A DNA stretch of 37,221 bases, from IMG/VR virus record IMGVR_UViG_3300011259_000017, positions 1 to 37,221 of that record. The stretch is one strand, 5' to 3'. A program made the translations under genes and the position numbers. Origin of the DNA: a virus. Each line of letters begins with the position of its first letter. The stretch's first letter is position 1. Below the pieces are notes generated by a model. That model searched no databases. It was not told the origin of the DNA and worked only from the letters and a program-made list of their open reading frames with translations. Positions 17,642 through 37,221 of the stretch are shown piece by piece.

Positions 17642-17782
17642 ATGGAACTAATATTAAAACAATTAGTAGGTGGCGGTGTCGCGATTATATCAATCGCGTT
17701 TCTATTAAACTTAATTTATCACTACATTAAAGTGTGTAAGCAAATCAAAAAATTAAAAGGTGAACAAAATGAGCAAAGCTAG
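17642..17782 (+). CDS. Small single-pass membrane protein, cassette 5
   Basis: A 46-residue protein with one hydrophobic helix (about residues 8-27, LVGGGVAIISIAFLLNLIYH) and a Lys-rich C-terminal tail. AGGAG lies 9 bases before the ATG. It overlaps the next gene by 14 bases. It lies in the same cassette as the endolysin, so a holin-related role is possible but unproven. Confidence 0.6.
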   Translation: MELILKQLVGGGVAIISIAFLLNLIYHYIKVCKQIKKLKGEQNEQS

Positions 17783-18053
17783 AGCGGTATTTAAAGGCAA
17801 CGAGTTACAAAGTTATTCTGGCGGGTGTAGCTCATATGAGCGCGTATACACTAGAGGTGACGATATACAAAGCAACCCGCCGCAAGTTGATAAATTGATT
17901 GATATAACTGAACTACAAAACCAGCTAGCAGAAAAAGACGCGGTTATTGCTGAGTTGAAATCAATGTACGAAGGATTAGAAAACGCTAAATCAGAAGGTA
18001 ATTATTACGGACGGAGTAACACTATAATTAATTATATAGGAAATTTAAAATGA
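17769..18053 (+). CDS. Hypothetical protein, cassette 5
   Basis: A 94-residue protein from ATG 17769, chosen over GTG 17760 because AAAAGG lies 8 bases ahead. The N-terminus is basic with 'YSGGCSSYERVYTRGDD'; residues 45-75 form a coiled coil (ITELQNQLAEKDAVIAELKS). It overlaps both neighbours. No family recognised. Confidence 0.65.
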   Translation: MSKARAVFKGNELQSYSGGCSSYERVYTRGDDIQSNPPQVDKLIDITELQNQLAEKDAVIAELKSMYEGLENAKSEGNYYGRSNTIINYIGNLK

Positions 18054-18178
18054 CTAACTACGAACTACTACTAACCCACAGCGCCGCATTTTTACTAGGT
18101 GGTTTTATATGGCATTTAATACTGGTCGGATGTGTAAAACATATCAACGGTGTTATTATTGGTGATGAAGATGATTAA
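18050..18178 (+). CDS. Small membrane protein, cassette 5
   Basis: A 42-residue protein with one hydrophobic segment (AAFLLGGFIWHLILVGCV) and an acidic end (GDEDD). Start overlaps the previous stop by 4 bases. Its coding region also holds a complete box promoter (18121-18159) for the next gene, so these codons carry two functions. Confidence 0.55.
   Translation: MTNYELLLTHSAAFLLGGFIWHLILVGCVKHINGVIIGDEDD
18121..18159 (+). promoter_or_regulatory. TGGTC-box promoter inside a coding region
   Basis: ACTGGTCGGA with TGGTC at 18123 and a textbook extended -10 TGTTATTAT (hexamer 18154-18159), 31 bases downstream. Start near 18166 would place the 18165 ATG at or before the transcript start, so later in-frame ATG 18171 might be used on this transcript. 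Confidence 0.55.
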
Positions 18179-18473
18179 ACCACTATTACTATTAACACTA
18201 ATATCACCAATCGCACACGCGGCTGATATTTACCTGTACAGCAAAACATCCATTGGTTACAAGTTTGATCAATCAAATGTTATGCAGGAAGACTTTTCAT
18301 ATTATAAATCGCATCCTATAAGCTCAACTTTTGAGTTAGGTTTAAACGTTAACAAGTGGAGTTTTGGTGTTAAACATGATAGTCAGCCGTTTGATGGTTG
18401 GCCAGTAAACAACAAAGGCGAATTGCACAAAACAGAAGTGTTTATTTCGTATACTAAAAAATGGGAGTTGTGA
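18165..18473 (+). CDS. Exported beta-rich protein
   Basis: A 102-residue protein with a clear signal peptide: MKMIKPLLLLTLISPIAHA, cleavage expected after AHA. The mature part alternates polar and hydrophobic residues in strands (IYLYSKTSIGYKF, STFELGLNVNKWSFGVKH, KTEVFISYTKKWEL) and ends in an aromatic-rich strand, like outer-membrane barrel segments, though it is too short for a whole barrel. It might modify the host surface, for example in superinfection exclusion. That role is inference only. Start at 18165; GTG 18150 would add hydrophobic residues but has no ribosome site. Confidence 0.65.
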   Translation: MKMIKPLLLLTLISPIAHAADIYLYSKTSIGYKFDQSNVMQEDFSYYKSHPISSTFELGLNVNKWSFGVKHDSQPFDGWPVNNKGELHKTEVFISYTKKWEL

Positions 18474-18634
18474 TGGACAACAAAGAAGATAAAAAATATT
18501 GCAAAGAATGCGGTGGGTTTATTAAGTATGATAAAACATCAAGATTGCTTAGCTCGCCGCCAAAATACAAAGGCGTGTGCAAAGATTGCGGAAGTTTTGT
18601 TTACACCAAATGTAGTGAGGTTGAAGATGAATAA
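18473..18634 (+). CDS. Small zinc-ribbon protein
   Basis: A 53-residue protein with two CxxC knuckles, C10-C13 (YCKECGGF) and C36-C39 (VCKDCGSF), spaced as in a zinc ribbon. Ends acidic (EVEDE). Start overlaps the previous stop (TGATG) and its end overlaps the next gene by 8 bases. A nucleic-acid or protein-binding role is likely from the fold type, but the partner is unknown. Confidence 0.65.
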   Translation: MDNKEDKKYCKECGGFIKYDKTSRLLSSPPKYKGVCKDCGSFVYTKCSEVEDE

Positions 18635-18797
18635 CCTACAACCTTGGAGGCCAACTGAGCTACTACTGAGTAATGAAGAAATACAACTGAGTAGAGATAT
18701 TGCACGAGAAGACAGAATAGAAACTTTGCTGTCAATGTTAGAAATCGTGTTAATGGTCGATATTATAATAATGCAAATGGTGATTAGTAATGACTAA
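18627..18797 (+). CDS. Small protein with hydrophobic C-terminal helix
   Basis: A 56-residue protein from ATG 18627, preceded by GAGG in the upstream gene. A polar acidic half (MNNLQPWRPTELLLSNEEIQ) is followed by a very hydrophobic, Met/Ile-rich stretch (LSMLEIVLMVDIIIMQMVI), probably membrane associated. A longer reading upstream in this frame overlaps the zinc-ribbon gene and is not supported. Overlaps the next gene by 8 bases. Confidence 0.55.
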   Translation: MNNLQPWRPTELLLSNEEIQLSRDIAREDRIETLLSMLEIVLMVDIIIMQMVISND

Positions 18798-19005
18798 AAT
18801 AACAGCAGCAGAGTTATTAACTTATGCACTCAATGAAAGTGGATTAAAAACTTCTTTTGTTGCCAAGAAATACGGCGTTACAGTGCAAGCAATAAATAAG
18901 TGGAAACGTGGCGACTTCTGCCCTAAATACGATGATTTATGCGGTATTTTAGAATATTTGGGGTTTGATATGGCTGAATTGATAATAAAACTGAGGAATA
19001 AGTAA
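18790..19005 (+). CDS. XRE-like helix-turn-helix protein
   Basis: A 71-residue protein with a helix-turn-helix at about residues 20-45: 'LKTSFVAKKYGVTVQAINKWKRG', in which the second helix (TVQAINKWKRG) has the typical recognition-helix pattern. Similar one-domain proteins act as Cro-like or accessory DNA-binding regulators. It lies immediately before the endolysin gene and inside a box-driven cassette, so it is a candidate, among others, for the protein that binds the TGGTC boxes. That link is speculative. Confidence 0.75.
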   Translation: MTKITAAELLTYALNESGLKTSFVAKKYGVTVQAINKWKRGDFCPKYDDLCGILEYLGFDMAELIIKLRNK

Positions 19006-19006
19006 A

Positions 19007-19489
19007 ATGTTAGATTATAAACAATTACACGACTTTGTAGCCAAGCCGCTATTAAGTCAAATTAAAAACGGCATGAGTGGTATTGATGCGTTTATGATGT
19101 GTGTCGCTCATGAGTCAAAAGGTGGCACATATTTAAAGCAAACTCACGATGGCCCCGCAAAAGGTATCATTCAAATGGAGCCTGACACACATAATGATGT
19201 ATGGCGCAATGGTGATTCAATTTGGGATAACGCTTTAAAGTTAGGAATAATTGAACGTTGGCAATACGATATTAAAACACACCCAACATCAGACCGATTA
19301 ATATACGATTTACGTTATAATGTGTTTATGTTTCGCCAATTTATGTTTATGCAGCCTGGCGTTTTACCCGTGCGCAGTAGGGAGTTAGCGAAATATCTTA
19401 AAAAGTATTACAACACCGAAAAAGGTAAGGCTACAGCAGAAAGTTATTACTATGACCATATAAACTGGCTTAATAATGGTACTCATTAA
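19007..19489 (+). CDS. Endolysin, lysozyme/transglycosylase type
   Basis: A 160-residue protein with the lysozyme-like pattern: catalytic Glu at residue 36 in 'CVAHESKGGTYLKQ', then 'DGPAKGIIQMEPDTHND', equivalent to the Gly-Gln-Met segment of soluble lytic transglycosylase and phage lysozyme domains. No signal peptide or SAR segment is seen (the N-terminus is MLDYKQLHDFVAKPLLSQIK), so release would need a holin. Start lies one base after the HTH gene. It should cut cell-wall glycan at lysis, making this cassette late-expressed. Confidence 0.75.
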   Translation: MLDYKQLHDFVAKPLLSQIKNGMSGIDAFMMCVAHESKGGTYLKQTHDGPAKGIIQMEPDTHNDVWRNGDSIWDNALKLGIIERWQYDIKTHPTSDRLIYDLRYNVFMFRQFMFMQPGVLPVRSRELAKYLKKYYNTEKGKATAESYYYDHINWLNNGTH

Positions 19490-19595
19490 AATAATACTAA
19501 TCCCGTTATTGTTTGTTGCAATAGCGGTTTTACTTTCGCATAAAACTAAAGAAGAATATCAACAGCCGCACAGTTGTGATTGGGAGGATGAATGA
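19476..19595 (+). CDS. Small N-anchored membrane protein after the endolysin
   Basis: A 39-residue protein with an N-terminal hydrophobic helix (LIKIILIPLLFVAIAVLL) followed by a polar tail (SHKTKEEYQQPHSCDWEDE). It overlaps the end of the endolysin gene by 14 bases and the next gene by 4 (ATGA). Position next to the endolysin fits a holin, antiholin or spanin-like accessory, but it is too short for a normal i-spanin. Assignment open. Confidence 0.6.
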   Translation: MVLIKIILIPLLFVAIAVLLSHKTKEEYQQPHSCDWEDE

Positions 19596-19822
19596 ACAAA
19601 GCACTAAAAAGATTTAAGCGTGTTAAGTGGATTGATACTGAGTTAGCCAGAAAGTACAAATTTAGGCGAGCATTAAACCACGCGCATGTGCTAGCAATAA
19701 AATCTATGGCTCAACTAAAAATTGACACAATAAGAAACTCAAATGATAATTTATTTGAAAAACAACTTGCAGTTAATGTGGTTAGAAGAGACGCTCGTGA
19801 GGCAATAAGCAAACTGGTCTAA
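19592..19822 (+). CDS. Small basic protein, cassette 5
   Basis: A 76-residue, strongly basic, helical protein (MNKALKRFKRVKWIDTELAR start), coupled to the previous gene by ATGA with GGGAGG as ribosome site. The positive charge suggests nucleic-acid binding, but no domain is recognised. Its last codons contain a complete TGGTC box for the next gene. Confidence 0.65.
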   Translation: MNKALKRFKRVKWIDTELARKYKFRRALNHAHVLAIKSMAQLKIDTIRNSNDNLFEKQLAVNVVRRDAREAISKLV

Positions 19823-19851
19823 TCTGTTTAGGTTGGTTGTTGTGGTATTGT
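19812..19851 (+). promoter_or_regulatory. TGGTC-box promoter before the 19886 gene
   Basis: AACTGGTCTAATC with TGGTC at 19815; extended -10 TGGTATTGT with its hexamer at 19846-19851, 31 bases downstream. Confidence 0.6.
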
Positions 19852-19885
19852 GGGTTTTTAATTAACTTAAAGAGTGAGAGAGATT

Positions 19886-20224
19886 ATGTGTGATGCAGAA
19901 GAGCCGAAGTGCTTTCAAGTGATAACAAGAAAGGCACGAAAAGAACACAAATGCTGCGAGTGCAGAAAAATAATAAGCAAGGGTGAGTCATATCAGTATT
20001 GTAGTGGCATATGGGACGACCCCCAATCATACAAAACGTGCTCGTCATGCGTTGAAGTAAGAGATAATTATGACAATACCAATTCATGCATACCACCATT
20101 TGGAAGCTTAAGTGAATATGTGCAAGAGCAGTTTTATACAGGGTTTGGTGTTAATGAGCTAATTAAGTTAAACCCACAGTTAGAGAGTAATGTTAAAAAA
20201 TTACTTGGAAAAGCCGCTAATTAA
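19886..20224 (+). CDS. Cys-rich putative zinc-binding protein
   Basis: A 112-residue protein from ATG 19886, preceded by GAGAGAG; GTG 19874 is less likely. Residues about 23-60 hold 'HKCCECRKIISKGESY' and 'KTCSSCVEVRD', two CxxC pairs flanking a strand, a zinc-ribbon-like arrangement. The first ten residues also contain two Cys. The C-terminal third is helical. Its own box promoter and a following terminator make it a one-gene unit within cassette 5. Function unknown. Confidence 0.7.
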   Translation: MCDAEEPKCFQVITRKARKEHKCCECRKIISKGESYQYCSGIWDDPQSYKTCSSCVEVRDNYDNTNSCIPPFGSLSEYVQEQFYTGFGVNELIKLNPQLESNVKKLLGKAAN

Positions 20225-20253: not shown

Positions 20254-20997
20254 CTATTTAGATCTATTATCATCAAAAATATTTAACAAATATTGTGTTG
20301 GATTTTCTTTCCTCCACTTCCAATCAGCAGCTGTATGACATGCCTTGCAAAGCGCCTCAAGGTTTGACTGCTTATTAGCTTGTGTTTTATTTTTATGTTG
20401 ATGGAATGGTATTATGTGATTAACATCTAACTTTCTTCCGTTTTCTTCTTCTGTCTTTCCACATATTTTACAAACTCGCCCGTGTAAATCTCTGCATTTC
20501 TCAGCAATCTTTAACCAACCTGCACCCCTTCCGCCACTTCTAGAGCTGCCGCCTTTCCAGTTAGGATGATTTTCTTTGTGGTGAGCTGTCTTTAACTTCC
20601 TTTCCTCATCTGTTTTCATTAGATATGAAACACACTCTGATGAGCAAGTTTTTCTGGACTTATCTTTTATGTATCTATTCTCTCCTGCCATATAAGAAAT
20701 CGCACTAAACTCAACTCCACAAGCTTTACATTTTTTGCGGCACAATCTTGAGAAATACTCATTTTTACACGTTTGAGAGCAGTATTTTCTTGTTTTCGCC
20801 TTTCCTGTTATAGCAATATGATTGCCGCACCCGGCGCAATCAAAACCGTTAGCTTTCCAAATGTCACGCCTAAATTTATCGTAGCAATCCCTAGAGCAAA
20901 ATATGTTTTTGCACCTGTCGCCACTTCTATTTTTTACAGGTGTTCTATTAACTCTATTGCCACATTCTTTACAATGATGTATATTTGATTTGCACAT
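20254..20997 (-). CDS. HNH homing-type endonuclease with zinc fingers
   Basis: A 247-residue protein from ATG 20997 (GGAG 7 bases upstream); a longer reading to 21057 is unlikely. The N-terminal half has several CxxC knuckles (HCKECGNRV, CAGCGNHI, CKACGVEF) for DNA binding. Then 'KENHPNWKGGSSRSGGRG', a motif typical of phage HNH homing enzymes. The C-terminal HNH domain has 'VCKICGKT', 'KLDVNHIIPFHQHK', 'NLEALCKACHTAADW', with His-Asn-His catalytic residues and four zinc Cys. Free-standing between the gp7-like and portal genes, it is probably a mobile insertion that cuts related phages. Confidence 0.85.
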   Translation of the reverse strand: MCKSNIHHCKECGNRVNRTPVKNRSGDRCKNIFCSRDCYDKFRRDIWKANGFDCAGCGNHIAITGKAKTRKYCSQTCKNEYFSRLCRKKCKACGVEFSAISYMAGENRYIKDKSRKTCSSECVSYLMKTDEERKLKTAHHKENHPNWKGGSSRSGGRGAGWLKIAEKCRDLHGRVCKICGKTEEENGRKLDVNHIIPFHQHKNKTQANKQSNLEALCKACHTAADWKWRKENPTQYLLNIFDDNRSK

Positions 20998-21071
20998 TTC
21001 GTTACTCCAATAACGTTTGTGAAGTGAGGTGAGGGAGCGCCAACTCCCTTGTTTCATGCTTTATTATACGA

Positions 21072-22367: not shown

Positions 22368-22829
22368 TCACACGTCACCGCCTGTAATAAACTCCATACT
22401 TTCAACATCAAAAACAGAAATATCACCACCTGTGCCAACGTCCATTGTAGCAGCAAACTCAGCAGCACTAAACGCAGATTTACCTAACTTCATAACAGAC
22501 AACGCATAAGGAGCACCCGAGCCGATAGCCTCGTTAAATGTTAACTCAATTTCAAAATAACCCGTTTCATTATCAACGCCAGAACAATAAGCGACACCAT
22601 CAATAACAAAAATACAAGTTACAGCAGGTACAAAATCAGGTTTAAATCCTATTAACTTATCCATATCTAAAAACGGTTTTATGTCAGCAATATCACCGGC
22701 AAAGAAATAATAAACGCCATCTTTTTCATGCCACTTTTTAAACGATGTGGATTTAATCTCATTGCCCGCCGTCATTAATCCATCACATGCGATTTGTTTA
22801 GTTTCATGGTTGTATACGATTGTAGTCAT
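22368..22829 (-). CDS. HslV/proteasome-like Ntn hydrolase
   Basis: A 153-residue protein starting MTTIV at ATG 22829, better placed after GGATGA than ATG 22835. Removing Met would expose Thr1, the nucleophile of HslV and proteasome beta subunits. Counting from that Thr, Asp15 (IACDGLMTAGN) and Lys31 (STSFKKW) keep the spacing of Asp17 and Lys33 in bacterial HslV with a two-residue loop deletion. 'EAIGSGAPYALSVM' matches the HslV 'AIGSGGPYA' loop. It is slightly shorter than HslV (about 175). No HslU-like ATPase is seen. It lies between terminase and head genes, so a head maturation protease or a host-directed peptidase are both possible. Confidence 0.8.
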   Translation of the reverse strand: MTTIVYNHETKQIACDGLMTAGNEIKSTSFKKWHEKDGVYYFFAGDIADIKPFLDMDKLIGFKPDFVPAVTCIFVIDGVAYCSGVDNETGYFEIELTFNEAIGSGAPYALSVMKLGKSAFSAAEFAATMDVGTGGDISVFDVESMEFITGGDV

Positions 22830-22861
22830 TTTCATTCATCCGTTTAGTTCATCCGATAACC

Positions 22862-31373: not shown

Positions 31374-33563
31374 TTACTTCAAGGAGTATTTTGTCGTCAC
31401 CTTGTGATTTTTGGCTACGCAGTCCTCCTTTTTTATTAAACCCATACTAACTAGTTTTTCCAAAACAGCTAAAACGTCTTTTTTCTCAGCAGGCCTACAA
31501 CGATTTGCAATAACACCAAGTGTCACTCCGTCTTCTTGTGACTCGATAACGGTCTGTATTTTAACCGCTAGTCCGTCCGCTGATTTTTCCATATTGGAGT
31601 AGGCGAGTTTTATTTTCTTATCTATGTCTTTCTTTGCAAGCTCAAACGCCCATGTAATATGCTCGTCTGTTCTTACCCCGTCACCAATAGCAAGTATAAA
31701 ACTTAATTTTGATGTTATCTCATAGCCACGTCTTGGAATTGCTTCTAAACCGTTGTCTTTTGATTCCTCTGCCATATCCCAAAAGTATTGATAAACCTCG
31801 TCAAGTTTTGATACAGCGCTTGGCGTGCTTTTTATTGGTGACTTTGCGCCGTAGTTTTCAACGCGCCATCCTGTTTGCCCTGCCAATGCTTTTAACTTCA
31901 ATTCCATTTGCATTGACATTTTTGGTTTTTTAAATCCTTTTTTACGCTTTGGGTTGTTTTCTGGCTCGTCAAATATCATCGAGCGACTGATAAATCCGTT
32001 TGTTGCAATCTCGTATGTTACTAGGTCGTTAAACGTGACAGGAGTCGTGTAACCAATCATAGCGAGAAATGGCATTTCTAAACCTTTGTCGATGTTCTCT
32101 ACTGCATACTCAAGCTGTTTAATTCGTTGTACTGTTAGCTCGTCTGCCTCGTTATCTTCTTTTTTCTTTATGCAGAATGATAATTCCTTTTTCATTTCTC
32201 GCATTAGGTCATCTTTTAAGTCCCCACTTACTGGTAAATAAGAATTGGCTTTACTGTATACGCTCATTATTAAACCGATAACGCCCTCTAAGTAGGTAGC
32301 GCCGGATTTTCCTGCATTTGTTATTTTCTTTAATACGATGCCTAATTCATCGACTGAGTAAAAAGCCGCTTGATGGCGCACAAGGTTTCGTACAATCTCT
32401 TGCTCTGATTTAATATTACCGTGTACCGCTTGTGACATATCAGCAACACGCATGCACTCAAGGAAAGCTTGTTGTACTGCCTCTTTACCTGTTGAACTTC
32501 CTGCAACACAGAATGTTAATAAGTTGGCCGTCATGCCGTCTTGTTCGTCTATGTAACGTAATCCTGCAATGTTGCCAACTGCTTGTATAGCGGCTGCAAC
32601 GGCTAGATTTTCTCTAGGATACAAACATTGGTCGTTTATCCATTGTGTTAATTCACCGACAAAGCCCGGTGGGCGTTTTAAATCTACAATAGCGGTTTCG
32701 GTTGATTTGAATTCAACATCAGATACAAATTCAACTTCTTGCTGATAACCGCCTGATTCAGCTAGATTGATAACTGTACCAAGTTTAACTGGTGTGTCTG
32801 ACTTGCCAAATGAGTGCCAATGCTTATTCATCGCGCCAGAGTTGTACTTACTGCCTTTTTGACTCCAGTCGTCCCAAAGGTCGAACCCTGCACCGCCTAA
32901 AGTTTCATGGATTGCCATACCGACACGAACCCAGTTATCGTAATCAATATCAGGGTCTATAAAGGAAAGCATTTCTTCTACGTCTTTATCGTCAACGTCT
33001 ACTGTGCCAATATTGGTAGCCACTCGTACCTTGTTTGGTTTTCTTAACATGTCTATTAACGATGTTGGTGCGTCTGTAACTTCGTCTGGACTTCCTTTTT
33101 CAGTTTCATATACATTGCCGCTTGCATGTAAAGAGTCCGAGCCAACGACAAACCCACTTGATTTAAAGTCAATGCCTTTATGTGTTTCTAAATGTGACAA
33201 TAAAGAAACATCTTTAGGTGCTTTAAAATATATGTGCCAACCTCCGCCACCTGTTGCGACTACGAATTGTGATTGATCATAATATTCCTGTACCTGTGCA
33301 AGGCTTCCGCCGTTGCGTGGGTCTATATCTATAATAATGTAGCCGTAGCAAAGAACACCAAAACCAGTTTTAAAGTGGCCTAATTCGTCCATAATATCTA
33401 ACTGTTCGTCTGACCATGTTGGCGTATGTTGCCAGTTAGACGCTATTGGGTGTTTAAAAAATGATTCACACTCTGGATTCCCACAGTCGCACAAATCATC
33501 TTTCGCGCCATGTAGACCAAATACTTTAAACCCTGCCTCTATATAATCGTAATGGTTAGCCAT
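31374..33563 (-). CDS. Primase-polymerase with C-terminal ATPase domain
   Basis: A 729-residue replication protein. The N-terminal prim-pol domain has DxD (Asp79, Asp81 in YIIIDIDPRNGG), the 'GGGGWHIYF' motif (His110) and 'SSGFVVGSDSLHASGNVYE'. A PriCT-like linker follows at about 195-265 (DPDIDYDNWVRVGMAIHETL). Then a domain with Walker A GSSTGKE (355-361), resembling DUF3987-type ATPases. It should prime and perhaps unwind at the adjacent iterons. TTGGAG precedes the ATG, 3 bases after the Cro-like gene. The C-terminus looks like a winged-helix (about 680-725). Confidence 0.85.
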   Translation of the reverse strand: MANHYDYIEAGFKVFGLHGAKDDLCDCGNPECESFFKHPIASNWQHTPTWSDEQLDIMDELGHFKTGFGVLCYGYIIIDIDPRNGGSLAQVQEYYDQSQFVVATGGGGWHIYFKAPKDVSLLSHLETHKGIDFKSSGFVVGSDSLHASGNVYETEKGSPDEVTDAPTSLIDMLRKPNKVRVATNIGTVDVDDKDVEEMLSFIDPDIDYDNWVRVGMAIHETLGGAGFDLWDDWSQKGSKYNSGAMNKHWHSFGKSDTPVKLGTVINLAESGGYQQEVEFVSDVEFKSTETAIVDLKRPPGFVGELTQWINDQCLYPRENLAVAAAIQAVGNIAGLRYIDEQDGMTANLLTFCVAGSSTGKEAVQQAFLECMRVADMSQAVHGNIKSEQEIVRNLVRHQAAFYSVDELGIVLKKITNAGKSGATYLEGVIGLIMSVYSKANSYLPVSGDLKDDLMREMKKELSFCIKKKEDNEADELTVQRIKQLEYAVENIDKGLEMPFLAMIGYTTPVTFNDLVTYEIATNGFISRSMIFDEPENNPKRKKGFKKPKMSMQMELKLKALAGQTGWRVENYGAKSPIKSTPSAVSKLDEVYQYFWDMAEESKDNGLEAIPRRGYEITSKLSFILAIGDGVRTDEHITWAFELAKKDIDKKIKLAYSNMEKSADGLAVKIQTVIESQEDGVTLGVIANRCRPAEKKDVLAVLEKLVSMGLIKKEDCVAKNHKVTTKYSLK

Positions 33564-33731
33564 TTATTTCTCCAAGTAGTCAGATAGTTTTTTTATCACT
33601 TCATAACTAGGATTTAACTTTACCCCTTTTCTTATAGCTGACAAGTAAGCGCCCGTAACGCCTATATCTGCGGCTACCTTTGTTAAGTTTTTATCTTGTA
33701 ACTTTTCTTTTATTTCTTCTAATGCAAGCAT
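33564..33731 (-). CDS. Cro-like helix-turn-helix protein
   Basis: A 55-residue protein (58 if started at ATG 33740, which sits directly against the ribosome site; ATG 33731 is 9 bases farther and better spaced). The helix-turn-helix is at about residues 15-36, 'NLTKVAADIGVTGAYLSAIR', with the recognition helix GAYLSAIRKG. It is the first gene behind the leftward of two overlapping promoters and ends 3 bases from the primase start. Size and place suggest a Cro-type regulator that may bind the GGTTGACA repeats at its own promoter. Confidence 0.75.
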   Translation of the reverse strand: MLALEEIKEKLQDKNLTKVAADIGVTGAYLSAIRKGVKLNPSYEVIKKLSDYLEK

Positions 33732-33780
33732 CTTTTTCATCCTTTTTTGTAATTTAATTTAATTATTTCTAATCTGATGG

Positions 33781-33809
33781 TTGACATATTAAAACTACTG
33801 GTTTAAATT
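33781..33809 (+). promoter_or_regulatory. Rightward promoter of the recombination genes
   Basis: TTGACA (33781-33786), 17 bases, TAAATT (33804-33809). Its -35 lies within an inverted repeat, GGTTGACA (33779-33786) and TGTCAACC (33809-33816). Confidence 0.6.
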
Positions 33810-33814
33810 GTCAA
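33786..33814 (-). promoter_or_regulatory. Leftward promoter of the Cro-like and primase genes
   Basis: Minus strand TTGACA (33814-33809), 17 bases, TAATAT (33791-33786). Each promoter's -10 touches or overlaps the other's -35, so they face each other and polymerase should occupy only one at a time. Confidence 0.65.
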
Positions 33815-33844
33815 CCGTTGAAGACAAAAAGAGGAAATAAAAAA

Positions 33845-34639
33845 ATGACAAATTCTTTGTTATCTAGTATCACCAAGCCGCAGGCTAGACCTGCAATTAT
33901 TACAATAACGGGCGATCCCGGCGTAGGTAAAACCGTGCTGGCTGCAACGTTCCCTAAGCCTATTTTTATCCGTGCAGAGGATGGCATGGAATCAATCGGA
34001 TTAGATAAACGTCCAGACGCTTTTCCAGTGTTGGACTCAGTAGGTGCATTATGGCAGCAGCTAAAAACGCTTATTGATGAAGACCACGGTTACAAAACGT
34101 TAATCATTGATTCTGTTACACAGCTAGAAACTATGTTTGCAGAGCATATAATGGAAACCGACCCTAAGAAACCTAAAAGCTTAGCGCAAGCAAACGGCGG
34201 TTATGGTGCAGGTTATAGCGCAGTTTCAGCCTTACATGGTCGAGTTCGCAAAGCGGCAAAGATACTAAACGAGCGTAAAGGTATGTTTGTTGTATTCATT
34301 GCTCACAGTGAAACGTCAACTATTGAGTTACCAGACCAAGACCCATACAGCCGTTACGATTTACGTTTACATAAAAAGTCTGTGCCACACTATGCCGACA
34401 ATGTTGATATGGTCGCATACTTACGCCTTGAAACATTTACAACTGGTGACGGTGAGCGTAAAAAAGCTATTTCAAGCGGTCAACGTATTGCGGTGTGTCA
34501 TACTGATGCAGCACAAATAAGTAAAAACCGTTACGGTATTACACAACCAGTAAACGTAAGCGAAGGTGTGAACCCGTTTATTGAATTTATTCCGGCACTA
34601 ACGCCAACAACTAATTTAAACAAAGAAGAAGGTAAATAA
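33845..34639 (+). CDS. RecA-like ATPase, Sak4-type annealing protein
   Basis: A 264-residue protein from ATG 33845 (GAGG 10 bases upstream); the TTG at 33818 lies at the transcript start and is rejected. Walker A at 23-30 (GDPGVGKT), Walker B in 'YKTLIIDSVTQLE', and later 'MFVVFIAHSE' and 'DNVDMVAYLRL' as in RecA-core proteins of the Sak4 group. With the next genes it forms an ATPase, ssDNA-binding, exonuclease set for recombination. No N-terminal or C-terminal extra domain. Confidence 0.8.
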   Translation: MTNSLLSSITKPQARPAIITITGDPGVGKTVLAATFPKPIFIRAEDGMESIGLDKRPDAFPVLDSVGALWQQLKTLIDEDHGYKTLIIDSVTQLETMFAEHIMETDPKKPKSLAQANGGYGAGYSAVSALHGRVRKAAKILNERKGMFVVFIAHSETSTIELPDQDPYSRYDLRLHKKSVPHYADNVDMVAYLRLETFTTGDGERKKAISSGQRIAVCHTDAAQISKNRYGITQPVNVSEGVNPFIEFIPALTPTTNLNKEEGK

Positions 34640-34641
34640 TC

Positions 34642-35172
34642 ATGTCATTTTGGAACTTAAACGATAATACAGAGCAGTTAAACACAACTGGTACATTTGA
34701 ATCTGCGGGTGGCGATATGGAGCCAATACCTGCAAAAACTCAGGTTAAAGCGGTTATTGATGAAGCTAAATTGGACGACTATGAAGGCGACCAATACATT
34801 AGCTTGCGATGGTCAATCTTAGCGCCAGAAGAATACAAAAACCGTAAAGTGTTTCAGAAAGTACGTGTATTTGAATCAGACCCTAAAAAACAAGATAAAG
34901 CTAAACGTATGCTTGCAGCTATTGCAGCTAATGCGGGCGGCGGCTTGCTACAAGAAGCTGACCCAACATCTGGAATCGCGCTACAAAAACATTTGTTAAT
35001 GAAACCAATGGTTATTATGTTGCAGGTTTGGGCAATGGAACAAGACGACGGAACAACACGTAAGGGCAATTGGGTTAGCGCTGTTAGTCCGTTAAACAAT
35101 CAAGCAGCACCACAGCAGCAAGCACAACAGGCACAACCTGCGCTAAACGATGACTTCGATGGTGGATTTTAA
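34642..35172 (+). CDS. ssDNA-binding-like protein (DUF669 type)
   Basis: A 176-residue protein. An OB-like core (about 20-130) with 'YEGDQYISLRWSILAPEEYKNRKVFQKVRVFES' and a flexible Gln/Ala-rich linker (AAPQQQAQQAQPALNDDFDG) ending in the acidic tip DDFDGGF, like the protein-binding tail of bacterial SSB. AAGAAGG precedes the ATG, 2 bases after the ATPase stop. It probably coats ssDNA and recruits the neighbouring recombinase. Family name by resemblance. Confidence 0.75.
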   Translation: MSFWNLNDNTEQLNTTGTFESAGGDMEPIPAKTQVKAVIDEAKLDDYEGDQYISLRWSILAPEEYKNRKVFQKVRVFESDPKKQDKAKRMLAAIAANAGGGLLQEADPTSGIALQKHLLMKPMVIMLQVWAMEQDDGTTRKGNWVSAVSPLNNQAAPQQQAQQAQPALNDDFDGGF

Positions 35173-35184
35173 TTAACCAACTGC

Positions 35185-35219
35185 AAGGAGCGCCCTAGTA
35201 ATAGGGCGTTTTATTTATT
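35185..35219 (+). promoter_or_regulatory. Shine-Dalgarno separated from its start by a hairpin
   Basis: AAGGAG (35185-35190) is followed at once by hairpin CGCCCTA-GTAA-TAGGGCG (35191-35208) and then TTTTATTTATT before ATG 35220. Folding would bring the site to 11 bases from the start. The same hairpin plus T tract could also work as a weak terminator. Confidence 0.55.
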
Positions 35220-36062
35220 ATGGAACAAAGAAGCAAAGAATGGTTTTTAGCCCGTAAGGGTAAAATAACTGGCAGTATGGTTGGCGCAGCTTTAGGGGTT
35301 AATCCTTGGTCTAAACCAGATGATGCTATGCGTAGAATGGTTAGAGATTATTGCGATCAACCTAGCGAGTTTACCGGTAACATTGCAACCGAATACGGAA
35401 CTAATAACGAGCCTAACGCGACAGAAGACTACCAATTTGAAACTGGTAACACTGTTGTAGAAGTTGGTTTTATTCAGCACAGCGATTGGCTTGGTGCTTC
35501 ACCTGATGGGTTAATCGGCGATGATGGCGTATTGGAAATTAAATGCCCATACGGTATGCGAGACGCTAAAAACGAAAGTGATTTTAAAAGTATTGACGAT
35601 CAACCTCACTATTACGCACAAATGCAAATTGAAATGTTATCAACTGGCCGTGAATGGTGTGATTTTTACCAGTGGTCTGCTTATGCGTCTAAACTTGAGC
35701 GTGTTAACTTTGACCCGTTTTGGATTGAAGAAAATTTACCTAAGCTAAAAGCGTTTTACGATAAATATTTAATTGAGCGCGAGCCGGATAACGCATGGAG
35801 ATACATAGACGGAGGTCAATTAGTTTACAATTACAAACTAAAAAAAGCCGCTTTTGATGTTGCTAAGCAGGAGTTTGAGGAAGCCAAAAACGCATTAATT
35901 GAAGCGGCAGACGGTAAATCATGCACTATCGGTGATGTTAAAGTGACAATGGTTAATAAAAAAGGCTCTATTTCTTACGCTAATGCGGTTAAAGATTTAT
36001 TGCCGGATGCTGACTTGTCAAAATACGAGGGTAAAACCTCACAATCTTGGAGAATTACATAA
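35220..36062 (+). CDS. YqaJ/lambda-exonuclease-like recombinase nuclease
   Basis: A 280-residue nuclease. The N-terminus 'EWFLARKGKITGSMVGAALG' is typical of YqaJ. Catalytic residues are Asp96 in 'GASPDGLIG', Glu106 and Lys108 in 'VLEIKCPYG', and 'HYYAQMQIEM' follows, all as in the PD-(D/E)XK fold. It should degrade one DNA strand to give 3' tails for annealing. No ribosome site lies in the usual place; one lies behind a hairpin. Its stop overlaps the helicase start by one base. Confidence 0.85.
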   Translation: MEQRSKEWFLARKGKITGSMVGAALGVNPWSKPDDAMRRMVRDYCDQPSEFTGNIATEYGTNNEPNATEDYQFETGNTVVEVGFIQHSDWLGASPDGLIGDDGVLEIKCPYGMRDAKNESDFKSIDDQPHYYAQMQIEMLSTGREWCDFYQWSAYASKLERVNFDPFWIEENLPKLKAFYDKYLIEREPDNAWRYIDGGQLVYNYKLKKAAFDVAKQEFEEAKNALIEAADGKSCTIGDVKVTMVNKKGSISYANAVKDLLPDADLSKYEGKTSQSWRIT

Positions 36063-37221
36063 TGTTAAGGGGTTATCAACAAGACTCAGTTAATGCAATA
36101 ATTGAATGGGTTAAAAAATGTGTTGACCCCGCTTTAGTTGACTTAGCAACTGGAGCAGGTAAAAGTCATATAATATCAGCCGTTGCAGATTGGATAAGAC
36201 AACAAAGTGACAAGAAAGTCTTGGTGTTAGCCCCGTCTAAAGAACTAGTGGAGCAGGACAGGGAGAAATACTTATCAACTGGCAACCCCGCAAGCTTGTA
36301 CTGTGCATCATTGGGTAAATGCTTAAAACATAGTGTTGTTTTTGGTTCACCTCAGAGTGTGAAGAATGACATTAAAAAGTTTAAAGGCGGTTTTGCGGCT
36401 ATCATAATTGATGAATGTCATAAAATCACACCGACAATAAAAGATATTATTGCGCATATAAAAAGCGACAGCCCAAAATGTCGGGTTATTGGATTGACGG
36501 CCACGCCTTACAGATTAAACACTGGTTACATATACGCCATTGATGAGCATGGAAACCCAGTGCCGGAATATAGGACGCGCGACCCGTATTTTGTTAAATG
36601 CCTACATAGAGTTTCGGCTCAATACTTAATTGATGAGGGTTATTTAACGAGGCCACACGCCGACCCTGACCACATAAGGGGTTATGCAGCAGGTTCGCTT
36701 GAGTTAAATAAACAAGGCAAGTTTGACGCGCGTGAAGTTGAACAGGTATTCGAAGGCCACGGGAACTTAACATCTGAAATAGTCGCAGACATTGTTTATA
36801 ATAGCCAATACAGAAACGGCGTTATTATATTCGCAGCAACAAGAAAACACGCCGAAGAAGTTATGGCAAGCCTACCACCCGCTAATTCTAGGCTTGTAAC
36901 TGGAGAAACAAAAGATAGTGACAGAGTTAAAATAGTAGACGACTTTAAAAAGAGACGGTTTAAATACCTTGTCAACGTATCAGTGTTAACAACTGGTTTT
37001 GATGCTACGCATTTAGACGTGGTTGCTATACTCAGAGCCACCGAGTCAGTTAGTTTGTTACAGCAGATTATAGGGCGAGGACTAAGGCTTGGTGATCCAA
37101 ATACGGCGGGCGATTTAATTGCAATTGCCAACAGTGAAAAACCCGATTGTTTGGTGCTAGATTATGCTGAAAATATAGAACGACATTGCCCCGATGGTGA
37201 CTTATTTAATCCGGAAATAAG
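36062..37221 (+). CDS. Superfamily 2 DNA helicase, 3' end outside the window
   Basis: 386 codons are visible. Motif I GAGKS (31-35), Ia 'LVLAPSKELVEQ', DECH box (117-120) in 'AAIIIDECHKI', motif III TATP (146-149), then the second RecA domain with 'NGVIIFAATRKHAEEV', 'VSVLTTGFDATHLDVV' and motif VI 'SLLQQIIGRGLRLG'. This is a complete set of a UvsW/RecG-like or restriction-type helicase core. It follows the exonuclease by an overlapping TAATG. The C-terminus is cut off by the window. Confidence 0.85.
   Translation, partial: MLRGYQQDSVNAIIEWVKKCVDPALVDLATGAGKSHIISAVADWIRQQSDKKVLVLAPSKELVEQDREKYLSTGNPASLYCASLGKCLKHSVVFGSPQSVKNDIKKFKGGFAAIIIDECHKITPTIKDIIAHIKSDSPKCRVIGLTATPYRLNTGYIYAIDEHGNPVPEYRTRDPYFVKCLHRVSAQYLIDEGYLTRPHADPDHIRGYAAGSLELNKQGKFDAREVEQVFEGHGNLTSEIVADIVYNSQYRNGVIIFAATRKHAEEVMASLPPANSRLVTGETKDSDRVKIVDDFKKRRFKYLVNVSVLTTGFDATHLDVVAILRATESVSLLQQIIGRGLRLGDPNTAGDLIAIANSEKPDCLVLDYAENIERHCPDGDLFNPEI

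Follow-up and report, generated by a model that had tools for sequence, protein, structure and literature searches.

Superposed antiparallel promoters predicted between two divergent DNA-metabolism operons of a tailed phage

In a virus record of 37,221 bases (the whole of which constitutes the window analysed here), an exactly antiparallel pair of TTGACA-17-TAnnnT promoters at 33781-33814 lies between a leftward operon encoding an HTH protein and a primase, and a rightward operon encoding Sak4, SSB, exonuclease and helicase proteins. The superposed geometry is conserved among relatives of this phage, and is dependent upon divergent gene order. With a probability of roughly two-thirds, the site would act as the shared early promoter of the DNA-metabolism region, in which a superposed sigma70-type pair serves one direction per polymerase binding and is subject to feedback by the HTH protein. 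A published account of the site was sought in the open-licence literature, and none was found.

Anatomy and genetic setting of the site

The site and the genes that flank it comprise the following features:

33779-33816, no strand: inverted repeat GGTTGACA...TGTCAACC with both -35 boxes, dyad near 33797
33781-33809, plus strand: rightward promoter TTGACA-17-TAAATT, predicted start near 33816 (direct reading and scan; kept in relatives)
33786-33814, minus strand: leftward promoter TTGACA-17-TAATAT, predicted start near 33779 (direct reading and scan; kept in relatives)
33564-33731, minus strand: Cro-like HTH protein, 55 aa (58 aa from 33740; Pfam HTH_3, E 5.9e-8; phrog_18104; alignment)
31374-33563, minus strand: Prim-Pol / PriCT-2 primase, second leftward gene (phrog_3022, E 4.9e-143; Pfam)
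33845-34639, plus strand: Sak4-like annealing ATPase (AAA_24), first rightward gene (phrog_124; PF13479)
34642-35172, plus strand: single-strand DNA-binding protein (SSB) family (phrog_9002, E 5.2e-62)
35220-36062, plus strand: YqaJ / RecE-like exonuclease (phrog_434; PF09588)
36047-37219, plus strand: DNA helicase, running past the window end, exact start unsure (phrog_16)

The original prediction placed a rightward and a leftward TTGACA promoter on the same 34 bases, with each -35 box touching or overlapping the opposing -10 box and both -35 boxes lying within the arms of an inverted repeat; direct reading and a promoter scan bear out each of these points. The rightward promoter consists of a -35 box (TTGACA, 33781-33786), a spacer of 17 nt and a -10 box (TAAATT, 33804-33809), and the leftward promoter of a -35 box at 33814-33809 (TTGACA), again 17 nt, and a -10 box at 33791-33786 (TAATAT), such that one base is common to each -35 box and the -10 box that opposes it. 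The arms that contain the TTGACA boxes, GGTTGACA at 33779-33786 and TGTCAACC at 33809-33816, can be extended in a repeat search to 15 nt each (87% complementary, with a gap of 8 nt). Among 30 matches to GGTTGACA in the window with at most one mismatch, these two arms are the only exact ones, and TTGACA-N22-TGTCAA has a single perfect match there, with 35 others among the matches listed, each carrying 3 mismatches. The window contains a single copy of the strict reciprocal pattern, TTGACANNNTA-N12-TANNNTGTCAA, whereas none of 400 first-order Markov windows contained one. The promoter scan detected 18 promoter-like sites in the region versus 25.4 expected, so that such sites are not enriched as a whole, and the notable point is therefore the register of the two TTGACA boxes. 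A sequence scan for the exact window site elsewhere matched only two near-identical contigs.

The first leftward product had been predicted to be a Cro-like HTH protein of 55 residues, an assignment that holds: its HTH_3 domain (PF01381) scores 33.1 bits versus a curated Pfam cut-off of 23, and, while the longest open reading frame would encode 58 residues, the protein probably starts at the internal ATG at 33731, since most relatives begin at that methionine. The same is true of the predicted division of functions, with replication (the Prim-Pol primase) to the left and recombination (Sak4, SSB, the YqaJ exonuclease and the helicase) to the right. Genes typical of tailed phages (terminase, portal, major head, tape measure and tail) lie leftward. 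Among annotated phages, those closest in Sak4 have Vibrio, Listonella and Pseudoalteromonas as hosts, on which basis the phage is presumed to be marine. The record ends within the helicase gene and may therefore be incomplete.

Several additional elements were observed elsewhere in the window. A second HTH_3 protein (71 aa, 18790-19005, plus strand) is encoded far from the site, in a plus-strand island (approximately 17760-20224) inside the leftward structural block, and is adjoined by an HNH endonuclease (20254-21057). An HslV-family peptidase (22368-22835, minus strand; phrog_1040) lies between the terminase and head-morphogenesis genes, and a terminator-like stem (35187-35212; 11 pairs and a T run) is located between the SSB and exonuclease genes, within the rightward operon.

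Conservation among Sak4 relatives

Relatives of the Sak4 protein were drawn from viral contigs and phage records, in which 248 loci were matched; genome contigs queried with the Sak4 protein of one such locus (L015) yielded no relative. Merging of identical upstream stretches reduced the 248 loci to 137, and removal of 11 with less than 200 nt of upstream sequence left 126 distinct loci. To each of these a regulator type was assigned, with representatives of each type profile-scanned: 102 carry a divergent HTH_3-type regulator, 9 a YdaS-type and 1 a P22 Cro-type regulator, and 14 have no divergent regulator directly upstream. Clustering at a k-mer similarity of 0.4 gave 68 loci (50 HTH_3, 5 YdaS, 1 P22 Cro and 12 with none), in which a single regulator slot is filled by three protein families.

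In each locus, the top-scoring promoter of either direction was taken from the last 120 bases, with a weight matrix of approximate E. coli frequencies. The forward and reverse promoters so chosen were superposed, at an offset of 31-34, in 44 of the 56 loci that have a divergent regulator, whereas none of the 12 loci lacking one showed this; over 40 shuffling rounds, the mean was 2.15 of 56 and the highest count 5. These counts sustain the earlier claim of superposed promoters between divergent operons; in the remaining 12 of the 56, the top-scoring pair falls outside this register. As the register in this count was set by the forward promoter, only the counts of the reverse promoter are informative. 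Among AT-rich relatives, the reverse -10 box (TANNNT) displays a peak at a spacer of 17 nt (14 of 28 loci, with 6 of 34 unused due to a -35 box not starting with TTG or a right arm that could not be placed). Among GC-rich relatives, a TANNNT box is found at that spacer in 1 of 22 loci, and the right arm hardly varies from TTGAC. Leftward promoter activity from the site is consequently doubtful in the GC-rich group, where the right arm may be an operator, or else a promoter with a weaker -10 box.

The primase gene varies in orientation along with the regulator, and is leftward in 41 of 50 HTH_3 loci, 5 of 5 YdaS loci and the single P22 Cro locus, and rightward in 9 of the 12 loci without a divergent regulator. 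Of the remaining HTH_3 loci, 8 of 50 lack a detectable primase of the Prim-Pol family and 1 of 50 (L110, of the phiHSIC type) has a rightward primase; L110 is the sole divergent-HTH locus of that kind, and is without the superposed geometry. In three loci (L118-L120) the divergent HTH gene is found one gene further up; L118 and L119 show no superposition, and L120 has an offset of 34 but a poor -35 box (TTCTCC). On the Sak4 tree, absence of the divergent regulator requires 4 changes, and independent contrasts run in the predicted direction in 2.4 of 4 cases on average and never in the opposite one; a phylogenetic sign test on these only 4 independent pairs was not significant (median p 0.5).

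Comparison of the window with one relative, L199, indicates that the site is 91% identical (42 of 46 positions), as compared to 62.5% for Sak4 and 60% for the HTH protein over the compared parts. Between the arms, the window has the 7-nt core CTACTGG and L199 its reverse complement, CCAGTAG, in near-identical surroundings; a micro-inversion was considered for this core, and three substitutions explain the difference equally well.

Proposed mechanism and its alternatives

We infer that both promoters are active and fire early, that polymerases exclude each other at the site, and that the HTH protein acts as a repressor, with the exclusion of one polymerase by another following from the complete overlap of the promoters. 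Each polymerase binding event would commit the site to one of two outcomes, namely transcription of the HTH and primase genes leftward, or of the Sak4-SSB-exonuclease-helicase operon rightward, so that a single site would supply both operons, and the relative strengths of the two promoters would determine the ratio between them. Once enough of the Cro-like HTH protein has built up, it would most likely bind the site and damp both directions, and this negative feedback would correspond to a coordination of the two operons rather than to a bistable switch between fates.

Among the alternatives, the one that survives best, although we judge it unlikely, holds that the inverted repeat is primarily an operator of the HTH protein laid over a strong rightward promoter, that its arms resemble -35 boxes for that reason, and that the leftward promoter is weak or located elsewhere. 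Retention of the right-arm TTGAC in those GC-rich relatives without a reverse TANNNT box favours such an arrangement, as does a comparison of the arms (in which L262 is without a left arm), where both arms of one clade shift jointly from TTGAC to TTGC, a change that fits an operator. Similarity of the site was also found to track similarity of the HTH protein when Sak4 similarity is taken into account (partial r 0.63, permutation p 0.001); however, the neighbouring leader, which lies 3' of the site and outside the repeat, gives a partial r of 0.53 with the HTH protein, such that much of the covariation reflects linkage and is not counted as proof of an operator. In three groups of relatives, the sequence that separates the arms is no more palindromic than expected by chance (51 of 158, 65 of 220 and 45 of 121 positions paired), and the offset of the right arm, which varies from 25 to 31 across relatives, is awkward for a single rigid dimer site. 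The operator reading is further opposed by the occurrence of identical geometry with different regulator families, by its presence in other phages beside genes not known as regulators, and by the peak of the reverse -10 box at a spacer of 17 nt in AT-rich relatives.

In two GC-rich loci, L134 and L137, inspection by eye revealed a TGTG/CACA symmetry around the left arm (AGTGTG-N10-CACACT and GATGTG-N10-CACATC); it is possible that this symmetry represents a candidate operator over the forward -35 box, and a TGTG-N10-CACA-like element at that position would be in keeping with the operator reading. Binding of the HTH protein to the arms is itself plausible, and forms part of the shared-promoter reading as well.

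The original prediction went on to describe the site as a switch between replication and recombination. A bistable developmental switch of that type is suggested by the Cro-like protein, the divergent operons and the superposed promoters, but is very improbable: no opposing regulator was found among the rightward genes, no integrase or lysogeny repressor appeared by name among the 50 open reading frames scanned against PHROGs, both modules consist of DNA-metabolism genes and would serve phage DNA synthesis, and phages of the phiHSIC type carry the primase on the right-hand strand while retaining the divergent HTH gene. That part of the prediction is accordingly not supported. The notion that a strong rightward promoter is faced, on the opposite strand, by a -35-like sequence of no significance, which draws on the frequency of -35 and -10 matches in AT-rich DNA and on the unenriched promoter scan, is scarcely credible in view of conservation in relatives as compared to shuffles, the empty Markov windows, and the enrichment of the strict pattern at divergent junctions.

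Wider occurrence and comparison with known systems

The strict pattern extends well beyond the Sak4 family. Viral contigs contain at least 120 loci that match it; among the matches listed, 105 of 121 sites lie between divergent genes as judged by a crude caller of open reading frames, and 2 lie inside such frames, versus a background in the same contigs of 226 divergent pairs among 1342 adjacent ones. A composition-matched control pattern was found at 9 loci in the whole collection, 7 of them inside open reading frames and 0 at a divergent junction. When 80 loci were clustered, their flanks fell mainly into two families, one pairing a Terminase_2-type protein with a small coiled-coil-like protein, and the other an SNF2-type helicase with a protein of 122 residues; profile scans of two flank representatives (the Terminase_2 type and the SNF2 helicase) found no known regulator. 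Phage contigs with these two gene pairs over a superposed divergent promoter are represented by L277-L396. The site of L351 is located between a gene that appears HTH-like by eye and one for a DUF2800 / PD-(D/E)XK nuclease. Bacterial genomes contain at least 119 sites, with 47 of 119 at divergent junctions among the matches listed, versus 173 of 824 background pairs. As promoters naturally sit at divergent junctions, such enrichment indicates that the sites are promoters, and not that each of them fires in both directions.

The predicted superposition is thus real and recurs in unrelated phages, some of them without known regulators in the flanks. A broader proposal, which we regard as evenly poised, is that sigma70 promoters exactly superposed in antiparallel orientation (TTGACA-17-TAnnnT in each direction, with starts approximately 37 bp apart) constitute a widespread and separately recurring class in phages, distinct from the kind that shares a -10 box, which would tie a pair of divergent operons to a single site of polymerase binding and for which an adjoining autoregulator would be optional and exchangeable. 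As a natural, conserved set in which both -35 boxes match the consensus and overlap is complete, these sites represent a regime in which polymerase competition should be strong. A site of 34 bp also offers a simple template for the study of polymerase exclusion, noise and the control of operon ratios, and the strict pattern provides a sequence rule for locating divergent operons in phage contigs.

Comparable arrangements are found in several known systems. The tetA/tetR region of Tn10 contains overlapping divergent promoters beside an autoregulator, and TetR-like proteins (15, named by eye from their sequences) form the largest flank cluster among the bacterial matches listed; that regulator is, however, unrelated to the phage HTH protein. 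In cro/cI regions of the lambda type, a small Cro-like protein is found beside early divergent genes, but we know of no superposed promoter pair of the present kind there, and, in contrast to the two opposed regulators of a lambda-type bistable switch, no regulator was found among the genes to the right of the phage site.

Bidirectional promoters, as described by Warman, Grainger and colleagues, also contain overlapping elements for divergent transcription; they have one near-symmetric -10 box in common, with starts 7-25 bp apart and most commonly 18 (PMC12825309, PMC10268837). The phage site differs in that its -10 boxes (33804-33809 and 33786-33791) occupy opposite ends, and its predicted starts, as calculated from the positions of those boxes, are approximately 37 bp apart. 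Polymerases are described as unable to bind bidirectional promoters both ways at once, and the basal level of five tested in E. coli as too weak for polymerase competition (PMC12825309), whereas both -35 boxes of the phage site are consensus and its basal strength would differ.

The closest known case is the Pc/Pr pair of pLS20, for which an exact reciprocal overlap of two divergent promoters has been proposed, the -10 box of each coinciding with the -35 box of the other, and in which an Xre-family, divergently transcribed regulator (RcoLS20) acts on both promoters, an arrangement termed a genetic switch (PMC4207663). The phage site displays the same reciprocal overlap, and is likewise accompanied by a divergent regulator of the Xre/Cro type (HTH_3, 33564-33731). 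In pLS20, Pr is weak and regulator-dependent, and a second operator and DNA looping are involved (PMC4207663); the phage site, in contrast, has a consensus -35 box in both promoters and a phage setting, and operator matching for it covered single-arm matches alone. While reciprocal overlap of -35 and -10 boxes had thus already been proposed for pLS20 Pc/Pr (PMC4207663), what appears to be new is how widely the superposed class extends among phages.
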